Below are positions 33,965-63,170 of a stretch of DNA of 64,000 nucleotides, piece after piece. The stretch lies in contig NZ_CP081183.1 of the NCBI RefSeq assembly GCF_019693215.1, positions 2,359,226-2,423,225 of the forward strand, in the 5' to 3' direction. Within the stretch, counting starts at the first letter, position 1; every line of letters begins with the position of its first letter. Made by a program: the position numbers and the translations under genes. The notes beneath the pieces were generated by a model. The model had not been told where the DNA came from. It saw nothing but the letters and a program-made list of their open reading frames with translations, and ran no database searches. Source of the stretch: Salinarchaeum sp. IM2453 (GTDB lineage: Archaea > Halobacteriota > Halobacteria > Halobacteriales > Salinarchaeaceae).

Positions 33965-34727
33965 GGCACTGCTAGATTGACCCTCGCTGTTTGAGTGCTT
34001 CAACTGGCGGTTGATTGTCGAGTGCTTGGTGGCTGCGATGGTGATTATAGTAGGCAGTGTAGGCAGTCAGCCAGCGCTCGGCGCTGGCTTGACTGCCGTT
34101 CCACGTTTCGTGAAAGCGTTTGATTCGCATCGTATAGGTCTGAAAGAGTTTTTCGACCATGTTGCGGTCAGTATAGTTGAGCTCACCACTCAGATCAGTC
34201 CGAGCAAGCGCGGTGAGGTAGCCCATGCCATCGACGAGAAACTCCGCGTCGGAGACACGGTGTTTCTCTTTCAGTTCGTCTAAAAACTGTTCAGCAGGAT
34301 CACGGCCTCTGTGCCACGAAAGTTGTGCGTGGAGCACGACTTTCGTATCTACATCGATTGCAGCGTAGAGCCACGCTTTCTGTTCATTTTCAAGCTGAAT
34401 TTGCTTTTCATCGACAGCGATACGATCTGGTTCAGCGGTGAAGTCCTGATCGTAGTACTCGGCGTAGGCTTGGTACCAGTGATGGATCGTGGCTCGGCGT
34501 CGTTCGACGCCGAACCACTCACAGAGATCTCGACACTCGGCTAACGAGGCGGCTCCGGCGTGAGCAGCACACGTCAGCCTGATCAACCAGGCTGGCGTGC
34601 GCGTCCGATCACTATCCAAAAACTCCACATCCGAAGAATCCGTTATGTCTAGTTGGAGTTCTTCGAAGAGCATTTTCCCACTTCCCTCGAAGAACTCCTT
34701 TCATTTCAATCTCAATCTAGCAGTGCC
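33965..34727. mobile_element. Complete IS6-family insertion sequence (ISH14-like)
   Basis: A 763-bp element bounded by perfect 16-bp terminal inverted repeats: GGCACTGCTAGATTGA at 33,965-33,980 and its reverse complement at 34,712-34,727. It is flanked by the direct repeat TTCTCGAC on both sides, the 8-bp duplication expected for IS6 transposition. It encodes one transposase on the minus strand. The uninterrupted target sequence can be rebuilt by joining 33,964 to 34,736. Perfect ends and duplication indicate a recent insertion. Confidence 0.93.
33972..34673 (-). CDS. IS6-family DDE transposase
   Basis: 233 residues, full length for haloarchaeal IS6 transposases. An N-terminal helix-turn-helix region (residues 40-70, GVERRRATIHHWYQAY) precedes the DDE domain: Asp88 (IAVDEKQIQ), Asp148 (FLVDGMGYL) and Glu174 (MVEKLFQTY), followed by HRSHQALDNQPPVEAL near the C-terminus. 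All three catalytic residues are present, so the enzyme is probably functional. The stop codon lies inside the left inverted repeat. Confidence 0.93.
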   Translation of the reverse strand: MLFEELQLDITDSSDVEFLDSDRTRTPAWLIRLTCAAHAGAASLAECRDLCEWFGVERRRATIHHWYQAYAEYYDQDFTAEPDRIAVDEKQIQLENEQKAWLYAAIDVDTKVVLHAQLSWHRGRDPAEQFLDELKEKHRVSDAEFLVDGMGYLTALARTDLSGELNYTDRNMVEKLFQTYTMRIKRFHETWNGSQASAERWLTAYTAYYNHHRSHQALDNQPPVEALKQRGSI

Positions 34728-35088: not shown

Positions 35089-36489
35089 TTACCCCGGCTG
35101 TGAACGTGCGGGTTTGCTGACGCTGGGTTGGTCGAATGAACGCGACTGTTCCTCAACATCGGCGGGTCTCCAGTCGTGTTCGTTCCACTGCCAGTACGCC
35201 CCCTCGTGGGGTGCGTCCCTGCCGCGTTCAGCAGACAGGGCAGCGGGCCGGGCCATCGGCCCCACTTCTTGCTGCAAGATGTTCCACGCTCCTGCCACGT
35301 CACTGTGAGCGTTTAGCTCGCAGTCTTGACACCGAAACGAATCGCCTCTCCGAGTGACATCACTACTCCCACACTCGGGACACTCGCTACTCGAATTGAC
35401 TTCGCTCACTTCCCGGAGTGTGATACCAACATCGCCGAGTGTCAATTCTATCCGCTCCAAGAGCTGTCGGTGTGACCAGAAAGCGTGGTTCTTTTCGTTC
35501 ACCTCAGCACTCCAGTACGTGTCCAGCACATCGGTCAACTCACCAACGTACACCGTGTCAACGTTGCGTTCAAGCAGCCACTCTGTGGCGTGTTTCACCG
35601 CCGCATCACGACTATGATCGCGTTTGCGTGATCGAGCGTCGTAGAGTCGCTTGATACGATTGCTCGTGTATTCATCTTCTGGGAGTTCCGACTGGAGTGT
35701 GGCGATTCGCTCGGAATAGCTCTGGAATCGGTCAAACTCTGGACGAGCGTGGTAGACCGCTGTCTCACCACGCTCGGTGACAACAGCCAATGTATTGTTT
35801 GCACCTACGTCGATTGCGGCTGCCTGCGTCGTGTTCTCTGTGTCGAGTGTGTGAGTGAAGGCATCCTCTCGCTGTTCTCTGAGTGTGTCTGGGTGAATGC
35901 GGACAGGATGCTGGACACGAAGCTGGTCAGCGTGCTCCTCGTAGATGAGTTCCAATCGGCTATCGTCACCATCCCACTGTGGGTTGCCGTTGACTTCGAG
36001 TGTGATACGCTCGTTGTGCTCGAAGTCGTAGCGGTCTTCGAGAACGTCACCGACACCAAATTCAAGCGTACTCCGGTCTTCGTCCCAGTCGAACGTGTAG
36101 AGGTCGTTTCGGACGAGGCCGTGCAACTCGTAGCCTTCTTTTCGGTTCCCCCAGTAGCCCGGTGGTGAGGGTTTCTCGGTCACTGCGGTGTTGGAGTCGT
36201 CGTGATACTGGTCGAGCAACCGGAAGTGACTGCGCCATGCTTCGCTATTCTTGCGAGCAATCTGCTGGCAGGTTGCCTTCCCAAGTATGGGGGCATACTC
36301 GTCGTAGAGGTCGGTGTACTCGGCGTTCCACACGTCACCATCGTCGCTGAAGTATTGGTGTCGGCGTCGGTAGGTGATCTGATTCCAGAGTGGGGGTTGG
36401 GCGGCCAGCCAGTCAAACAAACACTGCCGATACCTGTCGCTGGTTGCATTAGCGGTGTAGGTATTGGTTCGCTGTGGCCGGTCGCTCAA
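35089..36489 (-). CDS. tnpB: TnpB RNA-guided nuclease (IS1341 type), full length
   Basis: 466 residues. The N-terminal helical region includes RYRQCLFDWLAAQPPLWNQI. RuvC-I is AIDVGANNTLAV with Asp227, RuvC-II YVGELTDVL with Glu317, zinc finger Cys370/Cys373/Cys387/Cys390, and RuvC-III HSDVAGAWNI with Asp397. All catalytic residues are intact. TnpB proteins cleave DNA using a guide RNA made from the element's right end and help retain the element. The long tail after residue 410 is variable. It interrupts an acetamidase gene, and no TnpA partner exists here, so mobility would require TnpA in trans. Confidence 0.92.
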   Translation of the reverse strand: MSDRPQRTNTYTANATSDRYRQCLFDWLAAQPPLWNQITYRRRHQYFSDDGDVWNAEYTDLYDEYAPILGKATCQQIARKNSEAWRSHFRLLDQYHDDSNTAVTEKPSPPGYWGNRKEGYELHGLVRNDLYTFDWDEDRSTLEFGVGDVLEDRYDFEHNERITLEVNGNPQWDGDDSRLELIYEEHADQLRVQHPVRIHPDTLREQREDAFTHTLDTENTTQAAAIDVGANNTLAVVTERGETAVYHARPEFDRFQSYSERIATLQSELPEDEYTSNRIKRLYDARSRKRDHSRDAAVKHATEWLLERNVDTVYVGELTDVLDTYWSAEVNEKNHAFWSHRQLLERIELTLGDVGITLREVSEVNSSSECPECGSSDVTRRGDSFRCQDCELNAHSDVAGAWNILQQEVGPMARPAALSAERGRDAPHEGAYWQWNEHDWRPADVEEQSRSFDQPSVSKPARSQPG

Positions 36490-40829: not shown

Positions 40830-41546
40830 TCAAGTCGTAGTCGCTGACAGTTGGCCGGGGACAATGTTAGGGTCAATTCCTGCTGTTTGTAGCACATCCC
40901 AGAGTGTGGCACTGTTGCTTGTCACGACAGGTACATTCAGCTCGCTCTCTAGAGATTCAACGCGTGAGAATGTTGGGTAGTTAGTACAGGAAATAAACAC
41001 TGCGTCGATGTCAGATACACCTTCTATCTCAGAAAGAACCTGATCAGCTGCTGCTTCAGGGCTTAAAGCGCCGATAGCAGCATTATTTTCCAGTCTTCGT
41101 CCAGAGATATGTACGACATTGTATCCGAGTGCGTTCAGATATGATCGTTCTCGTTCGACGAGTTCTTGATTGTACGGCGTTACAACAAGGATTTGCGTCT
41201 TGTTGAGAGTAGACAATGCTCGGTCAACTGACCGTGCGGTTACAACTGTCGGAACACCGGCTGTCTGTTCTAACTCTGATTCTAATCGGCGTGCATATTC
41301 TGGTCCTTCGAGTAAGCTTCCAGTCGTACAAGCATAGGCGATAGCATCGACGGAGGCATCACTGACCCGTTCAACAGCACCGGTCGCTCTGTTACGCATC
41401 GATTTTAGATCGGCGGCTGTCACAGATGAAAGAGGCATGCGAGCAACATGCACTGATAAACTGTCGTCAATAGTACGTCCAAATTCCGTTTCCGTTGTTG
41501 TGTTTGTTGAGGGGACAACAACGCCGATACGGGTCAATTTACTCAT
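40830..41546 (-). CDS. Asp/Glu racemase-family enzyme (maleate isomerase/hydantoin-racemase-like)
   Basis: 238 residues. Starts RIGVVVPSTNTTTETEFG, the N-terminal motif of maleate cis-trans isomerase and arylmalonate-decarboxylase-like enzymes. The two catalytic cysteines of the superfamily are in IAYACTTGS and FISCTNYPTF. The start overlaps the hydantoinase B stop by eight bases; it is the last gene of the NRAMP-hyuA-hyuB operon. In that context a racemase for a hydantoin- or oxoproline-derived compound, or a maleamate-type step, is plausible, but the substrate is unproven. Confidence 0.82.
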   Translation of the reverse strand: MSKLTRIGVVVPSTNTTTETEFGRTIDDSLSVHVARMPLSSVTAADLKSMRNRATGAVERVSDASVDAIAYACTTGSLLEGPEYARRLESELEQTAGVPTVVTARSVDRALSTLNKTQILVVTPYNQELVERERSYLNALGYNVVHISGRRLENNAAIGALSPEAAADQVLSEIEGVSDIDAVFISCTNYPTFSRVESLESELNVPVVTSNSATLWDVLQTAGIDPNIVPGQLSATTT

Positions 41547-43146
41547 TGGAACTCACCGTTTCATCTTGACGATCATTCTGTCGGTCATCTTCGGATCGTT
41601 GCTCTGGAGGCCCATGTCCACCACCACCGGGAGTACGAACTCTCACTGTTGTCCCAGCGTCAACTTTCTGTGTGGATTTAGCTCCAACTGGTGTGCCGTC
41701 AATTAGATTTTCGCCCGTTGCTCCGGGTTTTCCACCGGCGCTTCCCTTCGGTGGACTGCGACGTCGTTCAGTGAGCAATGACACCGTTGCTGGAACATCT
41801 ACCGTAATCGAACGCTCAATTCCCATGCCCCCACGGTATTTGCCATCGCCGCCACTGTCTGGACGTAGCATATACCGCTCAACGTGCATAGGATATTCCG
41901 ATTCTAGTGCTTCAACAGGGGTGTTAAGCGTATTTGTCATCCCTACGTGAACACCGTCAATACCATCTTTATCAGGACGGGCCCCAAAGCCACCGCCAAT
42001 CGTTTCATAATACGTAAACTCATTGCCCTGACGGCCGCCAATAATGAGATTATTCATTGTACCTTGGCTCTGTGCGGGTAACTCGTCAGCGAGCGGTTCA
42101 GATAGTGATAAAAACAAAACATCAGTAATGCGTTGGCTCGTTTCAACGTTTCCACCAACAACTGCGGCTGGTGGAGTAGGATCTAACAGTGACCCTTCTG
42201 GAATCGATATCGTTACTGGGTCGTAGCATCCTTGATTTGGTGGAATATCTGGATCGGTGATTGCTCTGACAACGAAGTATACTGCACTTTTGGCAACCGC
42301 CCGGGGAGCATTAATATTACCATCAACCTGCTGTGCGGTGCCCTCGAAGTTGACAGTAATCGTGTCACCGTGGATTCTAATAGTTGCAACAATTGGAACG
42401 GGATCCTCCGTTACACCATCTCCCTCCATAGCTTCTTCAGCGGTGTACTCCCCATCTGGCAACTTCTCGATTTCTCGCTGCATTCGAGTTCGCGAATAAT
42501 CAATAACTGCATCAAACGCGTTCTTAAGCTGCTCGACACCGTATTCATCTGCAATCTCACGGATGCGGTCTTCGCCACGGCGGTTTGCGGCGAGTTGTGC
42601 ACGAAGGTCCGCTCGTCGCTCACGCTGACCCCGGATGTTTGTCAAGATAAGATTAAGAACATCTTCATCAATCGTATCTTTGCCGCGGTACAGTCTGACT
42701 GGCGGAATTCGAAGACCTTCCTGATAGATCTCTGTTGCCCCGGCTGGCATACTGCCAGGAACCATTCCTCCAACATCAGCATGGTGGGCCCGCGATACGC
42801 CATATGCAATAATCTCTTCATCAACTGCAATTGGAGACACAAGTGTGATATCTGGTAGGTGGTTACCACCAGAAAATGGATCATTGAGTACCCAGACATC
42901 GCCTGGTGAAGGATCACGATTGCGAACTGCTTCTACTGCTTCTGGGAGAGCACCAAGATGAACTGGAATGTGCTCTGCCTGTGCAATCATTCGACCAGAG
43001 GCATCAAACAGAGCGGTTGAGCAATCTTGTCGTTCTTTGATATTCGGCGAATATGCTCCCTGAATTAAGACATTGCCCATCTCCTCAGCGACCTCTGTCA
43101 ACCGATTTCGAAGAATCTCAAGCGTCACAGGATCGATATCACTCAT
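41539..43146 (-). CDS. hyuB: Hydantoinase B/oxoprolinase family subunit
   Basis: 535 residues from the ATG at 43,144-43,146, which has a good ribosome-binding site (AAAGGTGAT); a GTG at 43,155 overlaps that site and is rejected. Family features are DPVTLEILRNRL at the start, GDVWVLNDPFSGGNHLPDI, DVGGMVPGS, and the C-terminal TERRRSPPKGSAGGKPG and TPGGGGHGPP segments. With HyuA it forms an ATP-dependent hydantoinase or 5-oxoprolinase. The two genes overlap by eight bases. The exact substrate (hydantoin, 5-oxoproline, N-methylhydantoin, acetone-carboxylase-like) is not decidable here. Confidence 0.9.
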   Translation of the reverse strand: MSDIDPVTLEILRNRLTEVAEEMGNVLIQGAYSPNIKERQDCSTALFDASGRMIAQAEHIPVHLGALPEAVEAVRNRDPSPGDVWVLNDPFSGGNHLPDITLVSPIAVDEEIIAYGVSRAHHADVGGMVPGSMPAGATEIYQEGLRIPPVRLYRGKDTIDEDVLNLILTNIRGQRERRADLRAQLAANRRGEDRIREIADEYGVEQLKNAFDAVIDYSRTRMQREIEKLPDGEYTAEEAMEGDGVTEDPVPIVATIRIHGDTITVNFEGTAQQVDGNINAPRAVAKSAVYFVVRAITDPDIPPNQGCYDPVTISIPEGSLLDPTPPAAVVGGNVETSQRITDVLFLSLSEPLADELPAQSQGTMNNLIIGGRQGNEFTYYETIGGGFGARPDKDGIDGVHVGMTNTLNTPVEALESEYPMHVERYMLRPDSGGDGKYRGGMGIERSITVDVPATVSLLTERRRSPPKGSAGGKPGATGENLIDGTPVGAKSTQKVDAGTTVRVRTPGGGGHGPPEQRSEDDRQNDRQDETVSSNE

Positions 43147-45133
43147 GCTGATCACCTTTTGTCAGCTCAAGGGTGCCGTTCTGGCGAACGATACCACTCC
43201 AGTTGTCTAGTACAAGTGTTGTGCTCTCATCTTGTTCCAAGATCGCTGGACCAGAGATTGTCTGCCCAGGTGATAGCTTAGAACGGTCGAATACAGGCGT
43301 TTCAACGAACGACCCGTCAATCATCGCTTTTCTCGCTCCTATCCGTGCATCTGTTTTTGGGAAGTCAACGGTTGTTTCAACCGAAGGAGGTTCTCCAACA
43401 GCGGTCACACGAAGATTAACAAGCTCAATTGGATCGTCCATCGAATACCCGTAAGTCTCTGTGTATGCTTCTTTGAACAGCGACCGAAGTTCTGCTTGCG
43501 ATTCGATATTGCTGATATCAATCGTCAGCTCAAAACTTTGTCCGGCATAACGAAGATCCACAGCACGCTGGAAGTGTAGGTTATCTGTTTCTACACGCGC
43601 TGATAAATCAGCTTCAATCTCCTCGAATTGCTCACTTACCTTTGTGAGGTCAAGATCAGAAAGACGGTTGCGATACGTACGAACTGTATCGTGCTTTTCT
43701 TGTGCAACAGTAAGGCCCTGCGCAGAGAGCACTCCGGATGCATATGGAATTACTACCCGAGTAATATCTAGCTCTTCAGCAATTGCAGTGGCATGTAACG
43801 GGCCGGCACCACCGAACGCAACTAATCCAAATTCACGTGGATCATACCCACGCTCAACGGTCATAGTTCGAATGGCTCTCGTCATCGCTGCATTGACAAT
43901 ACGGTAAATTCCTCGTGCTGCTTCTATTGAATCTTCGAGACCAGCTTGATCTGCAACATCGTTCACAGCCTCCTTTGCTGCGTCGGTATCAATAGTGAGT
44001 TCTCCACCAAGCGCCGAATCTGATCCAATATAGCCCAAAACAACGTTTGCGTCTGTCACTGTTGGTAATTCACCTCCCTTTCCATAGCACGCTGGGCCGG
44101 GATTTGCGCCAGCGGACTGCGGACCAACACGAAGTGCACCACCTTCATCAACCCAGGCAACCGAACCGCCACCGGCACCAACAGTATTCACATCAACCAT
44201 CGGCACAGCGATCGGATATCCTCCGATGTCTACATCTGTCGTTCTTGTTGCTTGCCCGTCTCGGATGAGACTTACGTCACATGAAGTTCCACCCATATCG
44301 AATGTAATTAAGTCCGCATCACTGCCTGTGACTGCACTTGCTCCAACCACACCAGCTGCTGGACCCGATAGTGCCGTTGTGACGGCGTTATCACGAACGG
44401 TAGGGACACTTGCAATACCCCCATTCGATTGCATGATCGACGGTTCTGGAAGATTTATCTCCTCTGCACGGGTAACAAGCCGACCCAAATAGCGGTCAAT
44501 CGCTGGGGTCACATATGCATCAACAACCGTTGTTGACGTACGTTCAAACTCCCGAAATTCTGCAAGCACTTCATGCGAAGCTGAAACATGAGCTGTGGTT
44601 TCCTCGCGAAGAATATCTACCACCGCTTGCTCATTTTCGGGGTGGGCATATGCATGGAGTAATGAAACTGCAATACTTTGTACATCGTCGTCCAGCGATG
44701 CAACAATGTCTCGAACCTCATCTGGATCTACTGACTCTACAACTCTCTCAGTTGTCGATCGCTCACTTATCTCATGTCGTCTACGACGAGGAACGAGGGG
44801 AGTAGGGCGATCGACATCAAGATCGTATAGACTTGGTCGATCTTGACGGCCGATTTCTAAGACATCCCGAAACCCTTCTGTCGTGATTAACGCTGTCTTG
44901 GCACCGTTCTGTTCGAGTAACGCGTTTGTCGAAACGGTCATCCCATGAATAAATCTATCAATCGTTGCTGGATCAATATCTGCTTTAGTGCATGCTTTTT
45001 GAATTCCAGCGATAACCCCTTCACTCTGGTTGTCAGTCGTTGGTACTTTCGCAGTCTCTAGATGATCTTTAGCTGCTAATACAACATCTGTAAATGTTCC
45101 GCCGACGTCAACGCCGACTCTCACATCTGTCAT
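43139..45133 (-). CDS. hyuA: Hydantoinase A/oxoprolinase family subunit
   Basis: 664 residues. ATPase-fold features: GVDVGGTFTDVVLA at the N-terminus, HGMTVSTNALLEQNGAK, LSGPAAGVVGASAV, FDMGGTSCDVSLI, and VAFGGAGPLHATAIAEEL. The partner HyuB overlaps its 3' end. It lies 21 bases after the NRAMP-like transporter gene. Together they suggest uptake and ATP-dependent opening of a cyclic amide. Length matches HyuA (about 660-700). Confidence 0.91.
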   Translation of the reverse strand: MTDVRVGVDVGGTFTDVVLAAKDHLETAKVPTTDNQSEGVIAGIQKACTKADIDPATIDRFIHGMTVSTNALLEQNGAKTALITTEGFRDVLEIGRQDRPSLYDLDVDRPTPLVPRRRRHEISERSTTERVVESVDPDEVRDIVASLDDDVQSIAVSLLHAYAHPENEQAVVDILREETTAHVSASHEVLAEFREFERTSTTVVDAYVTPAIDRYLGRLVTRAEEINLPEPSIMQSNGGIASVPTVRDNAVTTALSGPAAGVVGASAVTGSDADLITFDMGGTSCDVSLIRDGQATRTTDVDIGGYPIAVPMVDVNTVGAGGGSVAWVDEGGALRVGPQSAGANPGPACYGKGGELPTVTDANVVLGYIGSDSALGGELTIDTDAAKEAVNDVADQAGLEDSIEAARGIYRIVNAAMTRAIRTMTVERGYDPREFGLVAFGGAGPLHATAIAEELDITRVVIPYASGVLSAQGLTVAQEKHDTVRTYRNRLSDLDLTKVSEQFEEIEADLSARVETDNLHFQRAVDLRYAGQSFELTIDISNIESQAELRSLFKEAYTETYGYSMDDPIELVNLRVTAVGEPPSVETTVDFPKTDARIGARKAMIDGSFVETPVFDRSKLSPGQTISGPAILEQDESTTLVLDNWSGIVRQNGTLELTKGDQHE

Positions 45134-45154
45134 TTTATGTTCACCTCACAATCC

Positions 45155-46381
45155 CTATCCGAACAAAGCAATCCATTGGTCATAAAGTGTTTGTGCTGCG
45201 ATGGCGATTACAACCAGTGCGACAAGGATGCCAAGTATATTTTGCACTGTGCTATTGGTGTACTTTCCAAGGAGCTTTTCGCTGTTCATAGCATACAGGA
45301 GGAAGACAGCGAGTATTGGTAGCAAGATACCATTTGCAACTTGTGCGAACACAATGACATTCACTGGATTAAGACCGATTGTTGAAAAGACAATACCGAC
45401 AACGAGGATCGTACCCCATATCGCACGGAACCGGGTCGATGTAAGGTCACGCTCCCATCCAAGCACACCAGCAGTGGCATAGGCACCAGCAAGCGGGGCC
45501 GACATTGCGCTTGTAAAGCCAGCAGCAAAAAGACCGATTGCGAAGAATTCTGGAGCTACTCCAGCTAGCACTGGATCAAGTTGAGTAGACATCTCGCCTA
45601 CGTCACCAATCTCAGTACCTTCTGGAAAAACGGCGGCAGCGGTGATCATTATTGACGCTGTGATAATTCCACCAACAACGACAAGCGCAATAGTGTCAAA
45701 CCGGACTTCGCCGATTTGATCCGCATCCCCCCACTTTTCTTGAACAGTACTGGCGTGCAAGAAGAGGTTATATCCAACAACAGTTGTCCCGACAAGCCCA
45801 GCAATCAGGAATGCCTGTCCGTCCGGCACCCGGGGAATTAGCCCCTCAGCTATTGCTCCTAAGTCAGGGCGCACAGCAATTGCATTAATCACAAATGCAA
45901 GCCCCATAATTACGACGAGTCCAATAAATATTCGCTCGATGAGCTTGTAGTTTCCCGTCCAGAGCAATGCTCCGGCAACAATCCCAATCAGTGGTGACCA
46001 AATTTGGACACTTACACCAGTGATTGTTTCTAAGCCTGACGCTCCGCCTGTGATATTTCCCGTCTGAAACGCGGCTGTCCCAACGCCAATTGCGAAGATA
46101 ATGAGTGCGGCCGTGATAACCTGTAAGATGTAGTTATCAAACATCCCCCTGAGGGCCTCGCCGAGTCCCTCATTGGTGACCAATCCTAGTCGGGCACTCA
46201 TTTCCTGCAAAACGATTGTGGCGATTACCGAAAAGACAACCGTCCAAATCAACAGATAGGCAAACTCTGCCCCAATAACACTTGCTGTTGTGACCGTCCC
46301 CGGACCAACAAACGCGGCGGCAACGAGTGCACCAGGGCCAATCGATCGAAACCAATTCTCTACCGTGTCCACTATACTCAT
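45155..46381 (-). CDS. NRAMP-superfamily transporter lacking the canonical metal-site residues
   Basis: 408 residues, eleven predicted helices. Overall fold signatures are NRAMP-like (FVGPGTVTTASVIGAEF, LQEMSARLGLVT, GYNLFLHASTVQEKW). In metal-transporting NRAMPs helix 1 has DPGN and helix 6 has MPHN. Here the first is G26-P-G-T29 and the second is V202-G-Y-N205, so the Asp, Asn and Met metal ligands are all replaced. Similar NRAMP-related proteins (for example YcsG of Bacillus) sit beside oxoprolinase genes. First gene of the operon with hyuA, hyuB and the racemase-like gene, so an organic substrate is more likely than a metal, by inference. Confidence 0.85.
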   Translation of the reverse strand: MSIVDTVENWFRSIGPGALVAAAFVGPGTVTTASVIGAEFAYLLIWTVVFSVIATIVLQEMSARLGLVTNEGLGEALRGMFDNYILQVITAALIIFAIGVGTAAFQTGNITGGASGLETITGVSVQIWSPLIGIVAGALLWTGNYKLIERIFIGLVVIMGLAFVINAIAVRPDLGAIAEGLIPRVPDGQAFLIAGLVGTTVVGYNLFLHASTVQEKWGDADQIGEVRFDTIALVVVGGIITASIMITAAAVFPEGTEIGDVGEMSTQLDPVLAGVAPEFFAIGLFAAGFTSAMSAPLAGAYATAGVLGWERDLTSTRFRAIWGTILVVGIVFSTIGLNPVNVIVFAQVANGILLPILAVFLLYAMNSEKLLGKYTNSTVQNILGILVALVVIAIAAQTLYDQWIALFG

Positions 46382-46411
46382 AGTACAAATACACGATACC
46401 TTTTGATGTGG

Positions 46412-46438
46412 TTAATATAAGCTTACGCATTAGCGTAA
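46412..46438 (-). promoter_or_regulatory. Promoter with palindromic operator for the NRAMP-hyuAB operon
   Basis: On the minus strand the TATA-like TTATATTAA (46,412-46,420) lies 31-39 bases before the ATG at 46,381. Immediately upstream, where TFB's BRE would be, is the perfect inverted repeat TTACGC-ATTA-GCGTAA (46,423-46,438). A protein bound there would block or aid pre-initiation complex assembly. Confidence 0.5.
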
Positions 46439-47122
46439 AAATTTCATCAATTTGTGAGTGAAATTAACATGGCTATGAAAGGATTAGTTCAATGCACAAG
46501 GGGGCCTCATACTTAGGAACTGAAATACTGGATCCTGTCCACTTCCAGACAGCATAAACTCAGCAAAGGTAACTAAAGGGACCTCAGTGTCCTCGAAACG
46601 TCAGTCATTATCAGTTCTTGGTAATCCGATTCTCTTTATGAAGACGTTCCCGTGACACCAATCCCGTGGATACCGTGATGGGAATCGGGGCCAACCGGGA
46701 CACAGGTATGCCGTGCTATCACCATCTTAATTATTTTTGTGGTTTGTGGCACATTCCTGTTTTCCTCTGCCTCGGAACCGGCTTGACTCGGAGTTCGCCG
46801 AAGCTGTACTTCGAGTGGTTGCCGACCCGGATGATCCCATTCTCCACAGTCTCGACTGGGCGAACAACAGTTGCGCGCTGAATACACCTTCTGGTCCTCT
46901 CTGTCTTGCACCAACAACCCTAACACAATAGTGAGATTTACCCGCCAGAGCAGTAGAAAACTCAATAATTATCGAGAAGGATTTATATATGTCCTACAGC
47001 GCTGACCAACGAATACAACCGCAAATTGCCCGACTTAACTTCATTAGACTAATTAAATCTTGGGTTACTGAGAACTGTTGTAGACACCTGCATCCATTGT
47101 CTCGCTATGGTGGGAAATGAGG
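46439..47122. repeat. Long gap with TnpB left-end-like relic
   Basis: No intact gene. GTGGTTTGTGGCACATTCCT at about 46,738-46,757 resembles GTGGTTTGTGGCATATTATG at the left end of the second TnpB element (36,549-36,568). Hairpin CCCGTG-GATAC-CGTGATGGG lies near 46,662-46,683. Open frames here (for example 46,737-46,931, reading EAVLRVVADPDDPILHSLDW) look like decayed coding sequence. A TATA-like ATTTATATATG lies at 46,982-46,992 without a gene behind it. Confidence 0.4.
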
Positions 47123-54688: not shown

Positions 54689-55079
54689 AGGAGACAGTCG
54701 TATTCGTGGACTATCAAATCTACCGTCGATCTCCTTCCAACAACTCTTGGAAATGTCTGATCACATATTTTATTATTTTGTCATTTAATAAATAGATTTG
54801 AGAATTGAACGTTTTCTTGCAGTTGCTTGAAGGAATTGTGACACTCTTTGATATCGCTAGGAGTATCTTGTTCTGAGGAGTTTTACTAATTTTACGCGCG
54901 CGCGCAGTTCTGAACAGATCGGTGGGGTCCCGGGAGGGTAGCGCGGCAGTTGCCCTGATCTGAAGGGACTACCTACAGACAGCTGGTTCGAGAAACCCCT
55001 ATGTTACAGTGTCTCGGGATGAGCGAAAACGCCTTCTTCAAACCGGGACGAGTCCGTGACTGGCGACGTTGAAGTGATT
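54689..55079. other. Non-coding stretch at the CRISPR trailer side with a GC-rich structured segment
   Basis: AT-rich until about 54,890, then sharply GC-rich. ACGCGCGCGCGCAG (54,893-54,906) is an alternating CG tract. CAGATC (54,915-54,920) pairs with GATCTG (54,957-54,962) around a GC-rich loop. GGTT-CGAGA-AACC (54,975-54,987) is a short hairpin. No open frame is convincing. Confidence 0.5.
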
Positions 55080-55087
55080 ACTTCAAC
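55068..55087 (-). terminator. Hairpin formed by the last CRISPR repeat and its trailer
   Basis: GTTGAAGT-GATT-ACTTCAAC: the 8-bp arm 55,068-55,075 is the exact inverse of 55,080-55,087, the 3' end (minus strand) of the terminal repeat. In the transcript it would form just after the last repeat. No U-tract follows, so a processing or end-protecting role is as likely as termination. Confidence 0.4.
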
Positions 55088-56766
55088 CCCACAAGGGTCC
55101 TTCTGAAACCTGGGTCTTGGCACGGTCGAAAACCAGCGCATCGAGACTTCAACCCCACAAGGGTCCTTCTGAAACGGGTACCACACGATCGCGAAGGTGC
55201 GGAAGCATTCGGACTTCAACCCCACAAGGGTCCTTCTGAAACGTTTTCAAAAAGTCGGTTAAGAGAATCATGGTTCTTGACTTCAACCCCACAAGGGTCC
55301 TTCTGAAACGAGTTGATTGAGGCTGATATTGACGGCCGTGTTTCAACTTCAACCCCACAAGGGTCCTTCTGAAACTTCGACTATCCGCTGATCCCCGACC
55401 TTCTAGATCACACTTCAACCCCACAAGGGTCCTTCTGAAACTTAGGTCTGTCGGCCGTGTACCCGTAGATGCAATGTCACTTCAACCCCACAAGGGTCCT
55501 TCTGAAACTCGATAGTTGCCTCGTACTCTGCCTCCTGGTCGAGACTTCAACCCCACAAGGGTCCTTCTGAAACCCGTGGCGACTGAATACGGAGACGAGA
55601 CACCGCTGTACACTTCAACCCCACAAGGGTCCTTCTGAAACCTCGCCGATGTGGGGGTTGTTTCTCAATGATTCCCACTTCAACCCCACAAGGGTCCTTC
55701 TGAAACAAGCTGGGGGCGAGTTTCGAGTCAACAACGTAGTCACTTCAACCCCACAAGGGTCCTTCTGAAACGGGCTACTGGTGGGATCTCACGCCGTTGG
55801 TGGGGGATACTTCAACCCCACAAGGGTCCTTCTGAAACGACTAGTCAGGCTTGCTATGTCCATGCCACGTGACGAACTTCAACCCCACAAGGGTCCTTCT
55901 GAAACCCGAAGTCGGACACTATTAGAAAGTGAAGGTCTCCGCACTTCAACCCCACAAGGGTCCTTCTGAAACACTGCCGGGTGGGGTATGAAGCATGACA
56001 GAAACCTGTACTTCAACCCCACAAGGGTCCTTCTGAAACATCATATCTAATTGTATCAACTCCAGACGGAGTAAGCACTTCAACCCCACAAGGGTCCTTC
56101 TGAAACGCCGGTTCAATATGATTGAGACGTTCGACTGTGCCCCACTTCAACCCCACAAGGGTCCTTCTGAAACTCCTTAAGTCCCAATAGCGATACGTTC
56201 GACTCAAAGACTTCAACCCCACAAGGGTCCTTCTGAAACAGTCATTGAAGCCGTTGTATTCGGTGTAGGGCTCAGCACTTCAACCCCACAAGGGTCCTTC
56301 TGAAACGGTAATCGACGGCCTCCGAAGGCGAACAACCCGTTCACTTCAACCCCACAAGGGTCCTTCTGAAACGCGTCGGACAGTCCGACCGCCGTACTGG
56401 CACGCGGCACTTCAACCCCACAAGGGTCCTTCTGAAACTTTCACCACAGAGCGGGCAGTACTTCGGGGCACAGTCACTTCAACCCCACAAGGGTCCTTCT
56501 GAAACTCCGTTCAGCGGGCATTGAGGTGATAACCAAGCTAAACTTCAACCCCACAAGGGTCCTTCTGAAACTGCGATCCAGAATGCAACCGAAATGCTGA
56601 TCAGCGTACTTCAACCCCACAAGGGTCCTTCTGAAACGGTAGGTTCCGTCTCTAGACACACCACTCATTCCACTTCAACCCCACAAGGGTCCTTCTGAAA
56701 CTTTACCGAAGAGTGGGAGTGTAACGTCTGTGGTGCACTTCAACCCCACAAGGGTCCTTCTGAAAC
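55080..56766 (-). CRISPR. CRISPR array, 26 repeats/25 spacers, type I-B
   Basis: Twenty-six copies of a 30-nt repeat; on the transcribed (minus) strand it begins GTTTCAGAAGGACCC and ends GGGGTTGAAGT, the haloarchaeal I-B type. First copy in window order is 55,080-55,109 and last is 56,737-56,766. By my reading all 26 are identical, including both ends. Spacers are 34-38 nt, mostly 36-37. The orientation is set by the leader and cas2 on the high-coordinate side, so the newest spacer should be 56,702-56,736 and the oldest 55,110-55,145. Confidence 0.98.
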
Positions 56767-56867
56767 CATGCCCAAATCACGGGCTATAGCTATTCTATTT
56801 CCTGGTTGGAATAAAGTCTTTTCGTCGACCCCCAATAGATCTCAAACCACCGGGGGTCGATGAACTC
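56767..56867 (-). promoter_or_regulatory. CRISPR leader with inverted repeat
   Basis: 101 bases between cas2 stop and first repeat. Contains the perfect 9-bp inverted repeat TCGACCCCC (56,825-56,833) and GGGGGTCGA (56,852-56,860). On the minus strand this hairpin follows cas2 directly and is followed by GACTTTATTCC (56,807-56,817), a possible promoter element for pre-crRNA. It may both end the cas transcript and mark the leader for spacer integration. Confidence 0.75.
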
Positions 56868-57131
56868 TCACAGAAATTGGCTATCTTCAGCTGGATCTTC
56901 GCCGTAGACGGTTCGTGAGACATACTTCTCTGAACTCATCTGGTAGATGATTATGGACTCACCGGGCTCAAGCATCGACTCAAGTTCCTGCTTGACCTTC
57001 TCAAAATCACCTTTCGTGATCTCTCCTTCAAAGACTGAGTTCTGTACATGAGTCAGATACTTCCGCAAAAATTTCAAGAAAAGCCGCGTTCGATCTGCCT
57101 CTACATCGTAGACAGCAATAACGTAAACCAT
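56868..57131 (-). CDS. cas2: Cas2 (spacer acquisition)
   Basis: 87 residues. Ferredoxin-like fold with the conserved Asp of VIAVYDVEADRTRLFLKFLR and NSVFEGEITKGDFEKVKQEL. Forms the integrase complex with Cas1. It starts one base after the cas1 stop and ends at the leader, last gene of the operon. Confidence 0.96.
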   Translation of the reverse strand: MVYVIAVYDVEADRTRLFLKFLRKYLTHVQNSVFEGEITKGDFEKVKQELESMLEPGESIIIYQMSSEKYVSRTVYGEDPAEDSQFL

Positions 57132-57132
57132 G

Positions 57133-58125
57133 TTACCACCACCGTTTGAATGCTTCGTAGGGTTCTCCCGTCAAAAGATGTTTCTTGAGTTTGTACGACT
57201 CAACCCGGAGTAAGTACTGATAGCTCACTTTTTTATTTAATTCGGGATGCTCAACAGTTTCCTCAAGTGTTTGTTCTAATTCTTTAGAGAAGGTCTTTCT
57301 CCCCGATTCGGTGAGGAGGCATGAGTTTAGCTCGGATTCAAAATCATCAACAGATAGTTGTCGCCGATTAACCAACCGGAATATAACCCGGTCGGTTAAC
57401 AGCGGCTTGAACAGATCCGCAAGATCCAACGCCAGTGAGTATCGTCTCTCTCCCGGTTCATGAAGATAACTGATTGTCGGATCTAAGGCTGTGGCCCTGA
57501 TTGCCGAGACGATATTTGCGTACACGAGGCTATTACCAAACGAAATCAGACTGTTCACCTTGTTATCTGGTGGATTATATGCCCTTCCGTTGAAAACAAA
57601 TCCGTTGGGGAGTACTTTATCAAATATCTGGTAGTACGCCCGTCGTGCACTCGCCTCTACACCCATTACTTCGTCAACCGCTGTGGTGTCAGCTAGTTCA
57701 TCTTGACATCGATCAAGGTCTGTAATGATAGAACTAAATTCATGCCCACGGTTGTTATAGTAGGTCACATTTGACCGCATATTGTGGATACTTCCTGCAA
57801 CAATCTCACGAGCAATCTTGATCCGATGTGTTGCATCATTATACGCTTGAACTTGGTTTACAACAGTCTGACCAGAGGTCTGCCCACGCTCAGGCATGAT
57901 CGAACCAGAATAGTAATCGTTCCAACCGAAGACATGCATAGCAATTCCGTGCTCGTTTAAGAATGAGACAAGTCGCGTATTGAAATCGATCTGTCCGTGA
58001 AGGTACAGGGCTTCGGCATTTTCTATTGGAAGGTATTTTTTGTCGTCGTCTTCGGTGACAAGTCGCACTGTGTCATTATGCCGCTCGATGCGTCCGTCTG
58101 AGAATATGTGGTAGTTATCATTCAT
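57133..58125 (-). CDS. cas1: Cas1b integrase
   Basis: 330 residues from the ATG at 58,123-58,125; a longer frame to 58,203 overlaps cas4 and its N-terminus is not Cas1-like. Metal ligands of the integrase site are Glu157 (MGVEASARRAYY), His222 (SYLHEPGERRYS) and Asp237 (LDLADLFKPLL). The N-terminal beta domain begins YHIFSDGRIERHND. It follows cas4 directly, with one base between stop and start, so coupling with Cas4 for PAM-selected spacers is expected. Confidence 0.96.
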   Translation of the reverse strand: MNDNYHIFSDGRIERHNDTVRLVTEDDDKKYLPIENAEALYLHGQIDFNTRLVSFLNEHGIAMHVFGWNDYYSGSIMPERGQTSGQTVVNQVQAYNDATHRIKIAREIVAGSIHNMRSNVTYYNNRGHEFSSIITDLDRCQDELADTTAVDEVMGVEASARRAYYQIFDKVLPNGFVFNGRAYNPPDNKVNSLISFGNSLVYANIVSAIRATALDPTISYLHEPGERRYSLALDLADLFKPLLTDRVIFRLVNRRQLSVDDFESELNSCLLTESGRKTFSKELEQTLEETVEHPELNKKVSYQYLLRVESYKLKKHLLTGEPYEAFKRWW

Positions 58126-58126
58126 G

Positions 58127-58693
58127 TTAGCAACTCCAGCAAAAATCGTGGTACGCGCATGAGTCACAATATGACTTTTCGGTTGCTGAGGGTGGTGAGT
58201 CATTTCTCACTATCTCATAGATTCCGCGGATCGCTGACTCAACCTTATCAATCGCCTCCTCATTTAATTCAACCGATTCTCGTTTTCGCTCGGTTGGATG
58301 AGCAAGTACACCGTCTTTCTTGACACCGACAACACGGTCCAGATACCACAGATAGTAGAGCAATTGGAGCCGTGCCGGTTCGATGAGTGATGACGAGGGT
58401 TTCACCTCAACAATACGACCGTCGTCCAGCATATCAGGCGCAATCCAGCCATCAATACTGAGATTTTGGCGCTGGTCTCCATACGCAGTATCATCGACGC
58501 GAGTACCGCGTACAACGTTGGGATTTTCGCGGTTAATCTCAATATTTCGGCTTTCGAACCAAAGTTCACGCTCACAAGCTTCATAATACTGCATCATTAC
58601 GCCTGTGACATGAAAAGACGCGTTAGCTGCTTCACTACGAGCAGATTCAAGAAGGAGTTCCACGGGGTCGATGTCACGTTCGGCCATGGTCAT
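58127..58693 (-). CDS. cas4: Cas4 Fe-S nuclease
   Basis: 188 residues. RecB-type nuclease residues in GWIAPDML and RIVEVKPSSS, followed by RLQLLYYLWYL (QxxxY). Fe-S cluster cysteines Cys40 (YYEACEREL) and Cys176, Cys179 and Cys185 (YCDSCAYHDFCW). The ATG at 58,691-58,693 overlaps the cas3 stop as ATGA. It trims prespacers for Cas1-Cas2. Confidence 0.95.
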   Translation of the reverse strand: MTMAERDIDPVELLLESARSEAANASFHVTGVMMQYYEACERELWFESRNIEINRENPNVVRGTRVDDTAYGDQRQNLSIDGWIAPDMLDDGRIVEVKPSSSLIEPARLQLLYYLWYLDRVVGVKKDGVLAHPTERKRESVELNEEAIDKVESAIRGIYEIVRNDSPPSATEKSYCDSCAYHDFCWSC

Positions 58694-61296
58694 AAGAACT
58701 GGTGATCAATGCTTGCGGTAGCCGTGACAAATCCGGTTGTTGCATCGAACTTGTCACCCTGTCGCCGTACATCAAGCATGTAGATGCCTTGATCTTCGAC
58801 GAGAATCGGAAGATCGTGAATTGCCTCCGCCCGGTCGCTGTCCTCTGAATAATATGGGACTGATATCCGGAGTGATTTCGTTTTGTCAATCAAATCGCGG
58901 AGTGTTTCGTAGTCATACTGTGCCTGTGCTTCCCGGATCTCTTCGAGTAATTTCCGTTCATCGTGCGTGCGAGCAATCACAATCTCTGCGGAACGCCGTT
59001 GATCGATCAGCGAGAGGTCACCAAGCTCTGCCGCCATTGCATCGTCTACAAAGTCTGCATATTCTTGTTTCCCGACGTCTTTGTCTTCTTGCAGTCGTTC
59101 AAAGTACTGGCGAACGGATCGTCGAGCAACATCCGTCTCCGAGAGGCCGTCAGTTTCGTCGCGGACACATTGGAGCGTTGCTGCTGCGACCGGAAGCAGT
59201 GTAGTTCCGCGGTTGTAGACTGCTTCTGCTGGCGTCCTTGTCTGGCCACCAGGAGCATCAAGCCACCACACTGTCACTGTGCCCCGATCAGACTCGAATG
59301 ACCGATTGCATCGCCCTGCTGCCTGAACAATACTATCGATCGGAGCGAGATCACGGTAAACGCGGTCGAAGCTGATATCGACACCCGCTTCGACCAGCTG
59401 CGTTGAAACGACTAGAACCGGCACCCTCCGTTCAGTGAGTAGTTTTATTGTCTCAATCAGAGTCAGTCGGTCAACAGGCCGAAGCCGGGTCGACAGGTGA
59501 ACGAGTGGTCTACCGTCAGCTGTCTCGATTCGATCCGCCAGATCGGAAGCTGAGATATCTTCGGCCTGGCCGCGGCGCTCGAGTTCATCTGCGTATAGAG
59601 CGCCCACATCCAGCATCGTTGGACTAAAAACCTGCTCAGTGAGCTCGCGAGCGCTTTCGATAGTATTACACACTGCAAGTGCTGAATCATCACCCTCGAC
59701 CGTATCCTGCAGTTCATGACCAGCAGTTGCGTACGATTTTGGATTACTCTGTTCCGCAATGTACCGCTCTGTAGAGGCGTCGAGTTCGTAAGCAACTCGG
59801 CTGATGGCAGAGAAATATGTGTCTGGTTTATCAATAAGTTTATATTCGTCCTCAAAGAGATGTGGCTGTGTTGCAGTCATCGCGATTACAGTCGCATTGT
59901 ACTGTTCGGTTAGCATCTTCACTAGTCTGGGAACAAGTTTCCACCAGTCAAGTGGCAGACTCTGCGGTTCATCGAGAACAATAACTGCGTTTCGCAATGC
60001 AGGGAGTTTCATTCCCTGCCGATTGGCGGGACCGGCGAGACTCTCGAAGAGTTGTACAAAGGTAGTGACAGTTACTCCAGCACGCCAGCTTTCTGCGAGC
60101 ATTGTCCCCACGTCGTCTGAAAGATCTGCCGCATCATCATCTTCGAAGTCCTGCATTGTTGTTTCCGCTAGATGGTGGTGAGCAGTCAGGAGGTTTCCAG
60201 TAATGTCAGTCTGATATATGTTCTCGAGTTCATTTACAACTTGGTCAATCACGCTTGTGAACGGGAGAGCATATACGACTCGATCGCCATCGGTTTGATC
60301 ACGTATTTCAAGCGCGGCTGAAAGCCCGGTGAGCGTTTTTCCCATTCCAGTTGGGAGTGTCAGTGTCGCAACCTGCTGGTCTGCCTCCACAAATTCTTGG
60401 ACAGAGTCAAGGACGGCTGTTCTAGCCTGTGATCGGTAGTAATTAAACTGCTCAGATCGAGATCCATCCACATCCCGAGTGACTTTCGACTCGATCTTGC
60501 TCACATACTCGTCCAAGCGGTCACCCGATGGATAATCGGGGGCGTATGTTGCTTCATTGTGTGGGGCTCCAGCGGCACTCAGTTTATCGGCCAAAATAAG
60601 ACTGCTCCAGCACTGTAGGGCACGTCCGTAGCAAGTTTCGGAAAGTGCGTCTTCTCGAGGTTCAGGTATGTTTCCGCTCGCAGCGACAGTCTCTTCAATC
60701 TCCTTCAGAAGATCGTTTCGCTCGTTGGCATCAATAAATCCTTCTCGAAATTCTTGCCAAGATCCATGACCCTCTGTAGCGCGCTGTACGATGTCCTGAC
60801 CAACGGCTCGATTGTTCTCATCAATGTCCTTGATTTGGTATGCAACAGCTGTTTGTCTTCGTTCATTAGCGTTCTGGTCTCCCGCAGTGACTCCCTCGCG
60901 TCGGTGGGATCGGTTGAAGACATAGTCTGCAACATCCGGCAGAGATCCATGGTGCTTGGCTACTGCCACAAATCCCGCAAGACAGGTTTCGGTCTTGAAA
61001 TCTCTTGCGCTGAGAGCATAGTAAGCAAGGAAAGACCCAAGTGGGGCGTGATGGCGAAGCAACTTGTTGTCAGGAGTTCGATCCGCGAGTAGGTACTCCT
61101 GGAAGTACGACGTTGCTTTCCCGATGTCGTGAACGTATGCCAGTGTCTCAACGATCGGTTTGAGCGACTCACCGTCAGGCGTTGTCATGTCAGGGTGGAC
61201 GACATAGCTGACACGCTCGGCGACATCCACGAGATGATTGAGGAGGAGTGTCCCCTCACTGCCATTTTCCGGGGGATGGGCATACAGCGGAGGCAC
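58690..61296 (-). CDS. cas3: Cas3 HD-nuclease/helicase (type I-B)
   Basis: 868 residues. N-terminal HD nuclease: NHLVDVAERVS, His56-Asp57 (YVHDIGKATSYF), HHAPLG and AKHHGSLPD. SF2 helicase: Walker A LPTGMGKTLTG (about 314-324), motif II DEPQ at 442-445, motif III MTATQP and motif VI QAAGRCNRS. Degrades target DNA recruited by Cascade. Lies between cas5 and cas4 with one base or a four-base overlap at the joints. Confidence 0.95.
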   Translation of the reverse strand: MPPLYAHPPENGSEGTLLLNHLVDVAERVSYVVHPDMTTPDGESLKPIVETLAYVHDIGKATSYFQEYLLADRTPDNKLLRHHAPLGSFLAYYALSARDFKTETCLAGFVAVAKHHGSLPDVADYVFNRSHRREGVTAGDQNANERRQTAVAYQIKDIDENNRAVGQDIVQRATEGHGSWQEFREGFIDANERNDLLKEIEETVAASGNIPEPREDALSETCYGRALQCWSSLILADKLSAAGAPHNEATYAPDYPSGDRLDEYVSKIESKVTRDVDGSRSEQFNYYRSQARTAVLDSVQEFVEADQQVATLTLPTGMGKTLTGLSAALEIRDQTDGDRVVYALPFTSVIDQVVNELENIYQTDITGNLLTAHHHLAETTMQDFEDDDAADLSDDVGTMLAESWRAGVTVTTFVQLFESLAGPANRQGMKLPALRNAVIVLDEPQSLPLDWWKLVPRLVKMLTEQYNATVIAMTATQPHLFEDEYKLIDKPDTYFSAISRVAYELDASTERYIAEQSNPKSYATAGHELQDTVEGDDSALAVCNTIESARELTEQVFSPTMLDVGALYADELERRGQAEDISASDLADRIETADGRPLVHLSTRLRPVDRLTLIETIKLLTERRVPVLVVSTQLVEAGVDISFDRVYRDLAPIDSIVQAAGRCNRSFESDRGTVTVWWLDAPGGQTRTPAEAVYNRGTTLLPVAAATLQCVRDETDGLSETDVARRSVRQYFERLQEDKDVGKQEYADFVDDAMAAELGDLSLIDQRRSAEIVIARTHDERKLLEEIREAQAQYDYETLRDLIDKTKSLRISVPYYSEDSDRAEAIHDLPILVEDQGIYMLDVRRQGDKFDATTGFVTATASIDHQFL

Positions 61297-61297
61297 G

Positions 61298-62098
61298 TCA
61301 GACGAACACCACCGTTCGATTGCCCACAGTCGATGCCGTAGCGTCGGTTACTGTGAGCATGCCTCCATCTGGATTGAATGCGTAGGTTGTAAACGCTGTT
61401 GTTGACCGACCATTTTTATCACGTTCCATGAAAGAAGGGGATTGCTCAATTTGACACCGACGGTCTGTGTTCATAATAACGTTATCAAAGCCACCAGGGA
61501 CTGTCGAATCAATGTCTAGAGTACCGTCATCAGAAGTGGTCACTGGTTCGACATCAAACTCGCCGTGGTAGTCGATTTCGGCGAGGTGCTCCGACAGGCC
61601 TAAACTTGGAACATAGTGGGACTTCCCAGCAGCGAGCATCTCCCGTAGTTTCTCGTAGCGTTCCTGGTCTGCCAAGGCAACATCGATCCGATACGCAGGG
61701 TTGACGAGTACTTCGTAATTATGTTGCTGCCGAGGATTTGTTGGATCAGGAAGTTTCATACTAATCTTTCCGCGGGCGTTAAGAGACGTGAGATCTTCGT
61801 CCGCTGTTGAAAGCGTATTCATTGGCATATTCACGGTTCGAAGGTCCTGAACGGGTTCAATTGCAATCCAAGAGTACTCAAATCCAAACAGTTCATAGTA
61901 CTCATCTCGTCCAATACCGAGAACAGCAGCTAAGAGACCGGCAACAGTCGTGCGCGGGATAACTCTATATGTCTGCTTGACGACGTTGCCTTCGACACGT
62001 CGGAAATGTCCCCATGGTCCCCTAACAGTAAGTGAAAGACACTGCTTTGGCCGTGTAGGCACATCATCTGGCGATGCCGGGTCCGGTGTCGCGTTCAT
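61298..62098 (-). CDS. cas5: Cas5b (Cascade subunit)
   Basis: 266 residues. The N-terminal RRM-like beginning CLSLTVRGPWGHFRRVEGNV is the Cas5 signature, followed by YRVIPRTTVAGLLAAVLGI, the G-rich loop region and LNARGKISMKL. It binds the 5' handle of crRNA in the I-B Cascade. Two bases after cas7. Confidence 0.93.
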   Translation of the reverse strand: MNATPDPASPDDVPTRPKQCLSLTVRGPWGHFRRVEGNVVKQTYRVIPRTTVAGLLAAVLGIGRDEYYELFGFEYSWIAIEPVQDLRTVNMPMNTLSTADEDLTSLNARGKISMKLPDPTNPRQQHNYEVLVNPAYRIDVALADQERYEKLREMLAAGKSHYVPSLGLSEHLAEIDYHGEFDVEPVTTSDDGTLDIDSTVPGGFDNVIMNTDRRCQIEQSPSFMERDKNGRSTTAFTTYAFNPDGGMLTVTDATASTVGNRTVVFV

Positions 62099-62100
62099 TG

Positions 62101-63168: not shown

Positions 63169-63170
63169 TG

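Follow-up and report, generated by a model that had tools for sequence, protein, structure and literature searches.

An NRAMP-fold transporter lacking metal-site residues heads a HyuAB operon in a haloarchaeon and probably imports 5-oxoproline

Why should a transporter of the NRAMP family, whose members are annotated as carriers of divalent metals, stand at the head of an operon of hydantoinase/oxoprolinase genes? The question is raised by a locus in Salinarchaeum sp. IM2453, a haloarchaeon with a 2.66 Mb genome in one contig, of which a stretch of 64,000 nucleotides (the window, to which positions below refer) was analysed. Four genes on its minus strand encode, in this order, an NRAMP-like transporter of 408 amino acids (45155-46381), HyuA, the ATP-binding subunit of the ATP-dependent hydantoinase/oxoprolinase family (43139-45133, 664 amino acids), HyuB, the metal-site subunit (41539-43146, 535 amino acids from its ATG), and a two-cysteine isomerase/racemase (40830-41546, 238 amino acids). 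Judging from sequence and gene neighbourhoods, we consider it probable that this operon imports 5-oxoproline (pyroglutamate) and converts it to glutamate, for food and nitrogen.

The gene products were recognized by the Pfam domains Nramp (310 bits, against a cut-off of 29.8), Hydant_A_N, Hydantoinase_A (309 bits) and Hydant_A_C, Hydantoinase_B (678 bits), and, for the isomerase, Amdase (93.8 bits) and Asp_Glu_race (39 bits). A first-pass annotation, made from the sequence alone, had described a four-gene operon with gaps of 21, -8 and -8 bases, and this layout is real provided that HyuB begins at its ATG; a GTG at 43155, upstream of that ATG, would give a HyuB of 538 amino acids. The same annotation extended the feature to 46438, which holds for the operon genes and fails for the end, as the transporter gene begins at 46381, preceded by an in-frame stop.

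By descent the transporter is a member of the NRAMP (SLC11) family, according to the Nramp profile match and to template modelling (TM) scores of 0.85-0.89 against solved NRAMPs in Foldseek. Its nearest solved folds were EleNRMT (TM 0.89) and MntH (TM 0.85, for the proteins of both D. radiodurans and B. fragilis), with the amino-acid carrier ApcT lower down. Alignment to the solved NRAMPs showed GPGT in place of DPGN in helix 1 (residues 26-29, 46295-46306) and VGYN in place of MPHN in helix 6 (residues 202-205, 45767-45778), so that neither motif agrees with canonical MntH, and only the helix-10 Gln, Q347 in FAQVANG (45341-45343), is kept of the metal site. Thus the Asp, Asn and Met ligands are gone, as had been read from the sequence at first sight, while a complete loss of metal ligands goes too far. 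The AlphaFold model proposed at that stage for helices 1 and 6, calculated from 38 aligned sequences, showed the NRAMP fold (pLDDT 93.2, pTM 0.91) and placed both motifs at the breaks of the half-helices, at 24/27 and 200/203, respectively. The window transporter therefore shares with MntH and DMT1 the Pfam family, the fold and the helix-10 Gln, and differs from them in the replaced motifs and in an operon with an enzyme of a lactam-opening family. EleNRMT, an NRAMP-related Mg transporter, also departs from the canonical metal site; however, it keeps the helix-1 Asp (DAGG), belongs to another branch and is 27% identical. In single family searches, on which all checks of the host genome rest, no DPGN-type NRAMP was found in that genome, and two other, weaker and distant NRAMP-like proteins (L002 at C1:2024336 and L003 at C1:1987811) read GVGTSH and SIGGSH in helix 1.

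Corynebacterium glutamicum requires PxpT, a member of the NRAMP family with 50% identity to YcsG, in order to grow on 5-oxoproline (PMC13274462, 2026), and the NRAMP-type 5-oxoproline carrier is thus, as a general idea, already published. Like the window transporter, PxpT, YcsG and PxpG of Clostridioides difficile belong to the NRAMP family and have lost the metal-site Asp, Asn and Met (GPGF and GGYI in PxpT); they sit beside genes for ATP-dependent 5-oxoprolinase and are reported to be necessary for 5-oxoproline use (PMC13274462). PxpT and YcsG differ in lying on a distant branch, in reading GPGF/GGYI against GPGT/VGYN and in missing the helix-10 Gln, and the partner of PxpT is PxpABC, which is not homologous to the HyuAB of the window. 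The YcsG query was an approximate sequence, and only database matches found by it were used. The first-pass annotation had cited YcsG as its precedent; by way of PxpT an oxoprolinase-linked NRAMP importer has indeed been reported, yet the precedent is contested by the claim that YcsG of B. subtilis, the PxpT homologue, raises cellular Mn and imports it (PMC10448178, 2023).

A tree of 108 NRAMP proteins, proposed with the first-pass annotation, was built by a quick method with a midpoint root and has long branches that meet, so that for the position of the window transporter relative to PxpT we claim only that it is not nested with PxpT. The transporter fell with bacterial GPGT/VPYN sequences, the PxpT proteins formed a separate long branch, and DPGN and DAGG members made up other branches, distinct from the GPGT clade. 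The haloarchaeal VGYN group was one clade (support 99), which joined the transporters of Alkalihalobacillus and Natroniella, both adjacent to pxp genes (support 94, with an open fork above). GPGT and (V/I)V(G/S)YN were kept in all 41 aligned haloarchaeal clade members.

An organic cargo, as opposed to a metal, is supported by these comparisons. If the transporter instead still moved a divalent metal (Mn2+ or another) for the HyuB metal site or for nitrogen metabolism, its place in the operon would also be explained, and the NRAMP fold, metal transporters as the nearest structures, the kept metal site of HyuB, the report of YcsG as a Mn importer under MntR (PMC10448178), and the helix-1 sequences of the host's other NRAMP-like proteins, none of them DPGN, could all be cited for it. 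We consider this quite unlikely, because the lost Asp, Asn and Met have a replacement that is invariant throughout the clade, with DPGN and DAGG members on other branches, because the related PxpT is required for growth on 5-oxoproline (PMC13274462), and because import of Mn was deduced from overproduction and from a triple mutant that failed (PMC10448178).

The neighbourhoods of the transporter clade point to its cargo. Among 292 haloarchaeal genomes, 84 contained a clade member (at least 51% identity), and in 40 fetched loci HyuA and HyuB were found near the transporter in 38; 30 of these loci had the isomerase, and 32 had an RHH (CopG-type) regulator directly upstream of the transporter. 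In Haloferax mediterranei and Haloarcula marismortui/hispanica the operon is carried by a megaplasmid. None of 18 other haloarchaeal NRAMP-type proteins (motifs DPGN, GPGS/GPGA and GSGS) had HyuA/HyuB beside it (Fisher 4e-13 against 38/40), although close relatives are included in these locus counts, which do not represent independent events. The invariance of GPGT together with the HyuA linkage in 38 of 40 loci indicates that the operon association is more than chance. A search for close homologues with DPGN or MPHN in the same neighbourhood yielded none: GPGT is present in every clade member that is linked to HyuAB or PxpABC. No further recurring enzyme surrounded the operon in the 40 loci, where only the RHH regulator, HyuAB and the isomerase recurred widely, and no conserved partner of HyuAB was found in 20 loci without an NRAMP gene.

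Bacterial members of the clade, about 41-55% identical and found in at least four phyla, have a different enzyme partner. We examined the best 80 genome_contigs loci of the clade, nearly all bacterial, which were ranked by likeness to a Pseudoalteromonas protein and are not a random sample. In 33 of these 80, pxpA lay within 6 kb of the transporter, mostly as the next gene, and pxpB and pxpC were present wherever the contig continues. The hosts were Bacteroidota, Bacillota, Actinomycetota (a Streptomyces), Gammaproteobacteria (Kangiella, Microbulbifer) and others, and the gene order varied, being mostly A-B-C after the transporter, B-A-C in Alkalihalobacillus, and divergent in a Tepidanaerobacteraceae bin. 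In two Bacteroidota bins (L133, L135) the transporter was directly followed, in place of pxpABC, by a fused HyuA-HyuB of 1252 amino acids. PxpABC, a reported 5-oxoprolinase (PMC13274462 and references there), and HyuAB have no sequence similarity to each other (PMC8453981, PMC13274462). Since one transporter clade is thus paired with two unrelated types of ATP-dependent enzyme that open 5-oxoproline, its cargo is most simply 5-oxoproline.

This linkage was also observed in an unbiased sample of 178 genomes from the bacterial class to which L166, a Flavobacteriaceae, belongs. Of these genomes 6 had a close clade member, and each of the 6 carried PxpA, compared to 9 of 172 others (Fisher 1.2e-7); 3 of the 6 close clade genes touched pxpA, compared to 1 of 108 other NRAMP genes, the single exception being of PxpT type (SAIGPGFLTQT, VGGTVGGY). 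Two more distant GPGT proteins (34 and 40% identity) were unlinked to pxpA, and with them included 3 of 8 are linked (p 9e-4). An unlinked close clade member adjoined gamma-glutamyltransferase.

Three other gene associations were seen in the bacterial loci. In Bowmanella and Aliiglaciecola (L121 10198-11316, L123 10196-11317) the GPGT transporter is convergent with a glutamate 5-kinase (ProB)-like gene; cyclisation of gamma-glutamyl phosphate yields 5-oxoproline. Bacterial pxp operons (L113, L114, L115, L132, L187) repeatedly contain a "putative hydro-lyase" gene, whose family is tied to D-glutamate cyclase, so handling of the D-enantiomer may be common to the operons with this gene. In L137, L138, L144, L155, L165 and L193, whose hosts, where named, are Porticoccaceae, HTCC2207 and SAR92 bins, a biotin carboxylase-like gene is found upstream of an unlinked transporter, at a distance of a few kb; three of these six carry a GPGS/VPYN variant in the tree.

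The enzyme itself retains its catalytic residues. In HyuA the phosphate-site residues D9/D16 (DVGGTFTD) and D279 (DMGGTS) were invariant in 65 sequences, and in HyuB residues D41, H96, D99 and H121, invariant in 68 sequences, align with the metal site of the caprolactamase subunit CapB (D41, H99, D101, H124), which mutation showed to be essential (PMC8453981). The two HyuA phosphate motifs and the HyuB metal residues are shared with the family of HyuAB, eukaryotic-type 5-oxoprolinase and CapAB (PMC8453981); the window proteins differ in being split subunits and in falling below the NCBIfam cut-offs for acetophenone carboxylase and for the caprolactamase equivalogs (526 and 283 bits against 1000). 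The nearest PDB entries were N-methylhydantoinase 7hk5 and caprolactamase 6yra. No archaeal substrate assignment for the hydantoinase/oxoprolinase family appeared in the papers found, and no function for haloarchaeal HyuAB in the literature searched, which left most subscription journals outside.

Of 292 haloarchaeal genomes, 276 encoded HyuB homologues and 36 encoded PxpA; the host genome has one HyuB and no PxpA. In every cell, glutamate and glutamine spontaneously give rise to 5-oxoproline (PMC13274462), and its unavoidable formation would explain a near-universal HyuAB with an optional importer; the single HyuB without PxpA and the wide occurrence of HyuB fit the disposal of such a metabolite. 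In the HyuA tree, proteins with and without a linked transporter were intermixed, with at least 9 changes forced, and so the enzyme seems to do one job with or without the transporter. HyuAB may, on these patterns, be the general haloarchaeal 5-oxoprolinase.

The isomerase belongs to the AMDase/maleate isomerase/EutA superfamily, and C73 and C187 were conserved in 34 aligned homologues (one gap), as expected of a racemase or isomerase. It shares with maleate isomerase, EutA and arylmalonate decarboxylase the fold family and the Asn of the VPSxN motif, and with aligned maleate isomerases the two Cys, and it scores well under the NCBIfam equivalog cut-offs for EutA (105 against 318 bits) and arylmalonate decarboxylase (88 against 225 bits). 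The first-pass label "racemase" can therefore be kept as far as the two-cysteine superfamily, with these three enzymes, and not Asp/Glu or hydantoin racemase, as nearest relatives. At one haloarchaeal locus (L034) the isomerase adjoins the transporter while a HyuAB copy of that genome lies elsewhere, and its substrate is therefore probably the cargo or its product. Our simplest guess is that it serves the use of 5-oxo-D-proline.

A cyclic amide such as 5-oxoproline or a hydantoin had been suggested as the cargo at the outset; comparative genomics agrees with an organic cargo and narrows it to 5-oxoproline, because bacterial clade members adjoin pxpABC and because the genome has no clear N-carbamoyl-amino-acid hydrolase. 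It is nevertheless conceivable, if unlikely, that the transporter carries another cyclic amide opened by HyuAB (a 5-substituted hydantoin, creatinine-derived N-methylhydantoin or another lactam) and that the isomerase is a hydantoin racemase. The nearest PDB entries would agree with this, as would the use of a racemase in hydantoin pathways and the arrangement in L034, where the isomerase stays with the transporter and so acts on cargo or product. Hydantoin and N-methylhydantoin routes, however, require a carbamoylase or amidase: none is in the operon, and the best match in the genome to the N-carbamoyl-amino-acid hydrolase model TIGR01879 reached 19.7 bits against a cut-off of 204, other carbamoylase families not having been searched. 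The bacterial partners, moreover, are the reported 5-oxoprolinase PxpABC (PMC13274462), and the isomerase lies under the cut-offs of its nearest named families.

The reverse direction of transport was also weighed. An exporter of 5-oxoproline or glutamate, for overflow or osmolyte control, with HyuAB disposing of the remainder, would suit the intracellular accumulation of 5-oxoproline, an osmolyte in some halophiles (PMC13274462), and sequence cannot show direction. We regard this as very improbable, since growth on external 5-oxoproline requires PxpT (PMC13274462) and since it would be wasteful to pair an exporter with an enzyme that hydrolyses its cargo.

Several observations weigh against import and hydrolysis of 5-oxoproline. 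The helix-10 Gln is retained, and Mn import has been reported for YcsG, as described above. Several cyclic amides serve as substrates of HyuAB-family enzymes, and 5-oxoproline is not a substrate of caprolactamase (PMC8453981). No oxoprolinase gene was found nearby in 43 of the 80 bacterial loci, mostly those of Alteromonadales and relatives; PxpA was encoded elsewhere in 27 of 28 searched genomes of this unlinked type or related to it, where it may simply be common. Within haloarchaea, genomes with PxpA are enriched for the NRAMP clade (20 of 36, compared to 84 of 292 overall), so that HyuAB and PxpABC are not mutually exclusive, and no NRAMP gene adjoins the haloarchaeal pxpABC clusters in 12 fetched loci.

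The last two counts also led us to reject two ideas, namely that the HyuAB operon displaced PxpABC within haloarchaea and that haloarchaeal pxpABC has an NRAMP of its own. A biotin carboxylase gene was present near pxpA in most haloarchaeal PxpA loci (L099-L105, L107, L109-L112).

A mechanism for 5-oxoproline import and use can be proposed as follows. The helix-1 metal site of the NRAMP-fold carrier would have been turned into a Gly-Pro-Gly turn, and a carboxylate could take the place of the metal, held by free backbone amides where helices 1 and 6 are broken; in amino-acid carriers of this superfamily, carboxylate is bound through the backbone amides of broken helices. In the cytoplasm HyuA would phosphorylate the lactam with ATP, and HyuB, via its metal site, would open the ring to give L-glutamate, with no further dedicated enzyme needed. 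The isomerase/racemase would probably interconvert D- and L-5-oxoproline (or D- and L-glutamate), making both enantiomers usable. Substrate, direction, chemistry and the role of the racemase are all predicted here from the observed gene order, ligand loss, HyuAB residues and clade linkage.

More broadly, 5-oxoproline carriers may have arisen from NRAMP-fold proteins in at least two non-sister lineages, of which PxpT/YcsG is one and the GPGT clade another, both having a Gly-Pro-Gly carboxylate site, the haloarchaeal carrier having come from halophilic Bacillota and having had its partner swapped from PxpABC to the host HyuAB, the general haloarchaeal 5-oxoprolinase; we would put the chances of this whole scenario at about even. 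What appears to be new is the second NRAMP lineage, together with its HyuAB partnership and its archaeal form. No paper linking NRAMP with hydantoinase, and none on a second 5-oxoprolinase-linked NRAMP branch, was found in the literature searched, and since most subscription journals were outside that search this is weak evidence of novelty. In annotations, genes of the clade are called "Nramp family divalent metal transporter" and the genes beside them hydantoinases; if our interpretation is true, many such haloarchaeal and bacterial labels are wrong. Haloarchaea would then have a system for salvaging 5-oxoproline, their near-universal HyuAB would have a function, and the dispute over Mn or 5-oxoproline as the cargo of YcsG/PxpT would receive an independent test from a second ligand-less NRAMP branch and a second, unrelated enzyme. 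The structural question is also raised of how an NRAMP metal site becomes a carboxylate site.

Upstream of the transporter, most relatives carry TTCAYAC direct repeats, 10 bases apart, within 200 bases before the gene. There were 67 occurrences in 46 sequences against 1.7 expected from mononucleotide shuffles, with 21 neighbours spaced exactly 10 bases, an excess that is descriptive, as the pattern was picked after viewing the sequences. The repeats lie at about -80 to -125, beside the RHH-regulator gene (L035-L073 and other loci), and resemble an operator at which the upstream RHH protein would act. The window has neither the TTCAYAC repeats nor an RHH regulator or its remnant, both being likewise missing in L034 and L063, which suggests that control has changed here. 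A palindrome, TTACGCTAATGCGTAA (46423-46438, minus strand), is located 42-57 bases upstream of the transporter beside a TATA-like stretch and is a weak candidate for a promoter or operator. The intergenic stretch upstream of the transporter (46382-47122, 741 bases) is AT-richer and contains a TTG-start open reading frame (ORF) of 109 amino acids with no clear kin, possibly a decayed gene.

Elsewhere in the window, a Type I CRISPR-Cas locus on the minus strand (54900-64000) was recognized by eye from Cas1-, Cas4-, Cas3-, Cas5- and Cas7-like ORFs, with a CRISPR array of at least 26 repeats of ACTTCAACCCCACAAGGGTCCTTCTGAAAC at 55080-56790. A transposase-like ORF (33972-34673) and a TnpB-like ORF (35089-36489) were also identified by eye.

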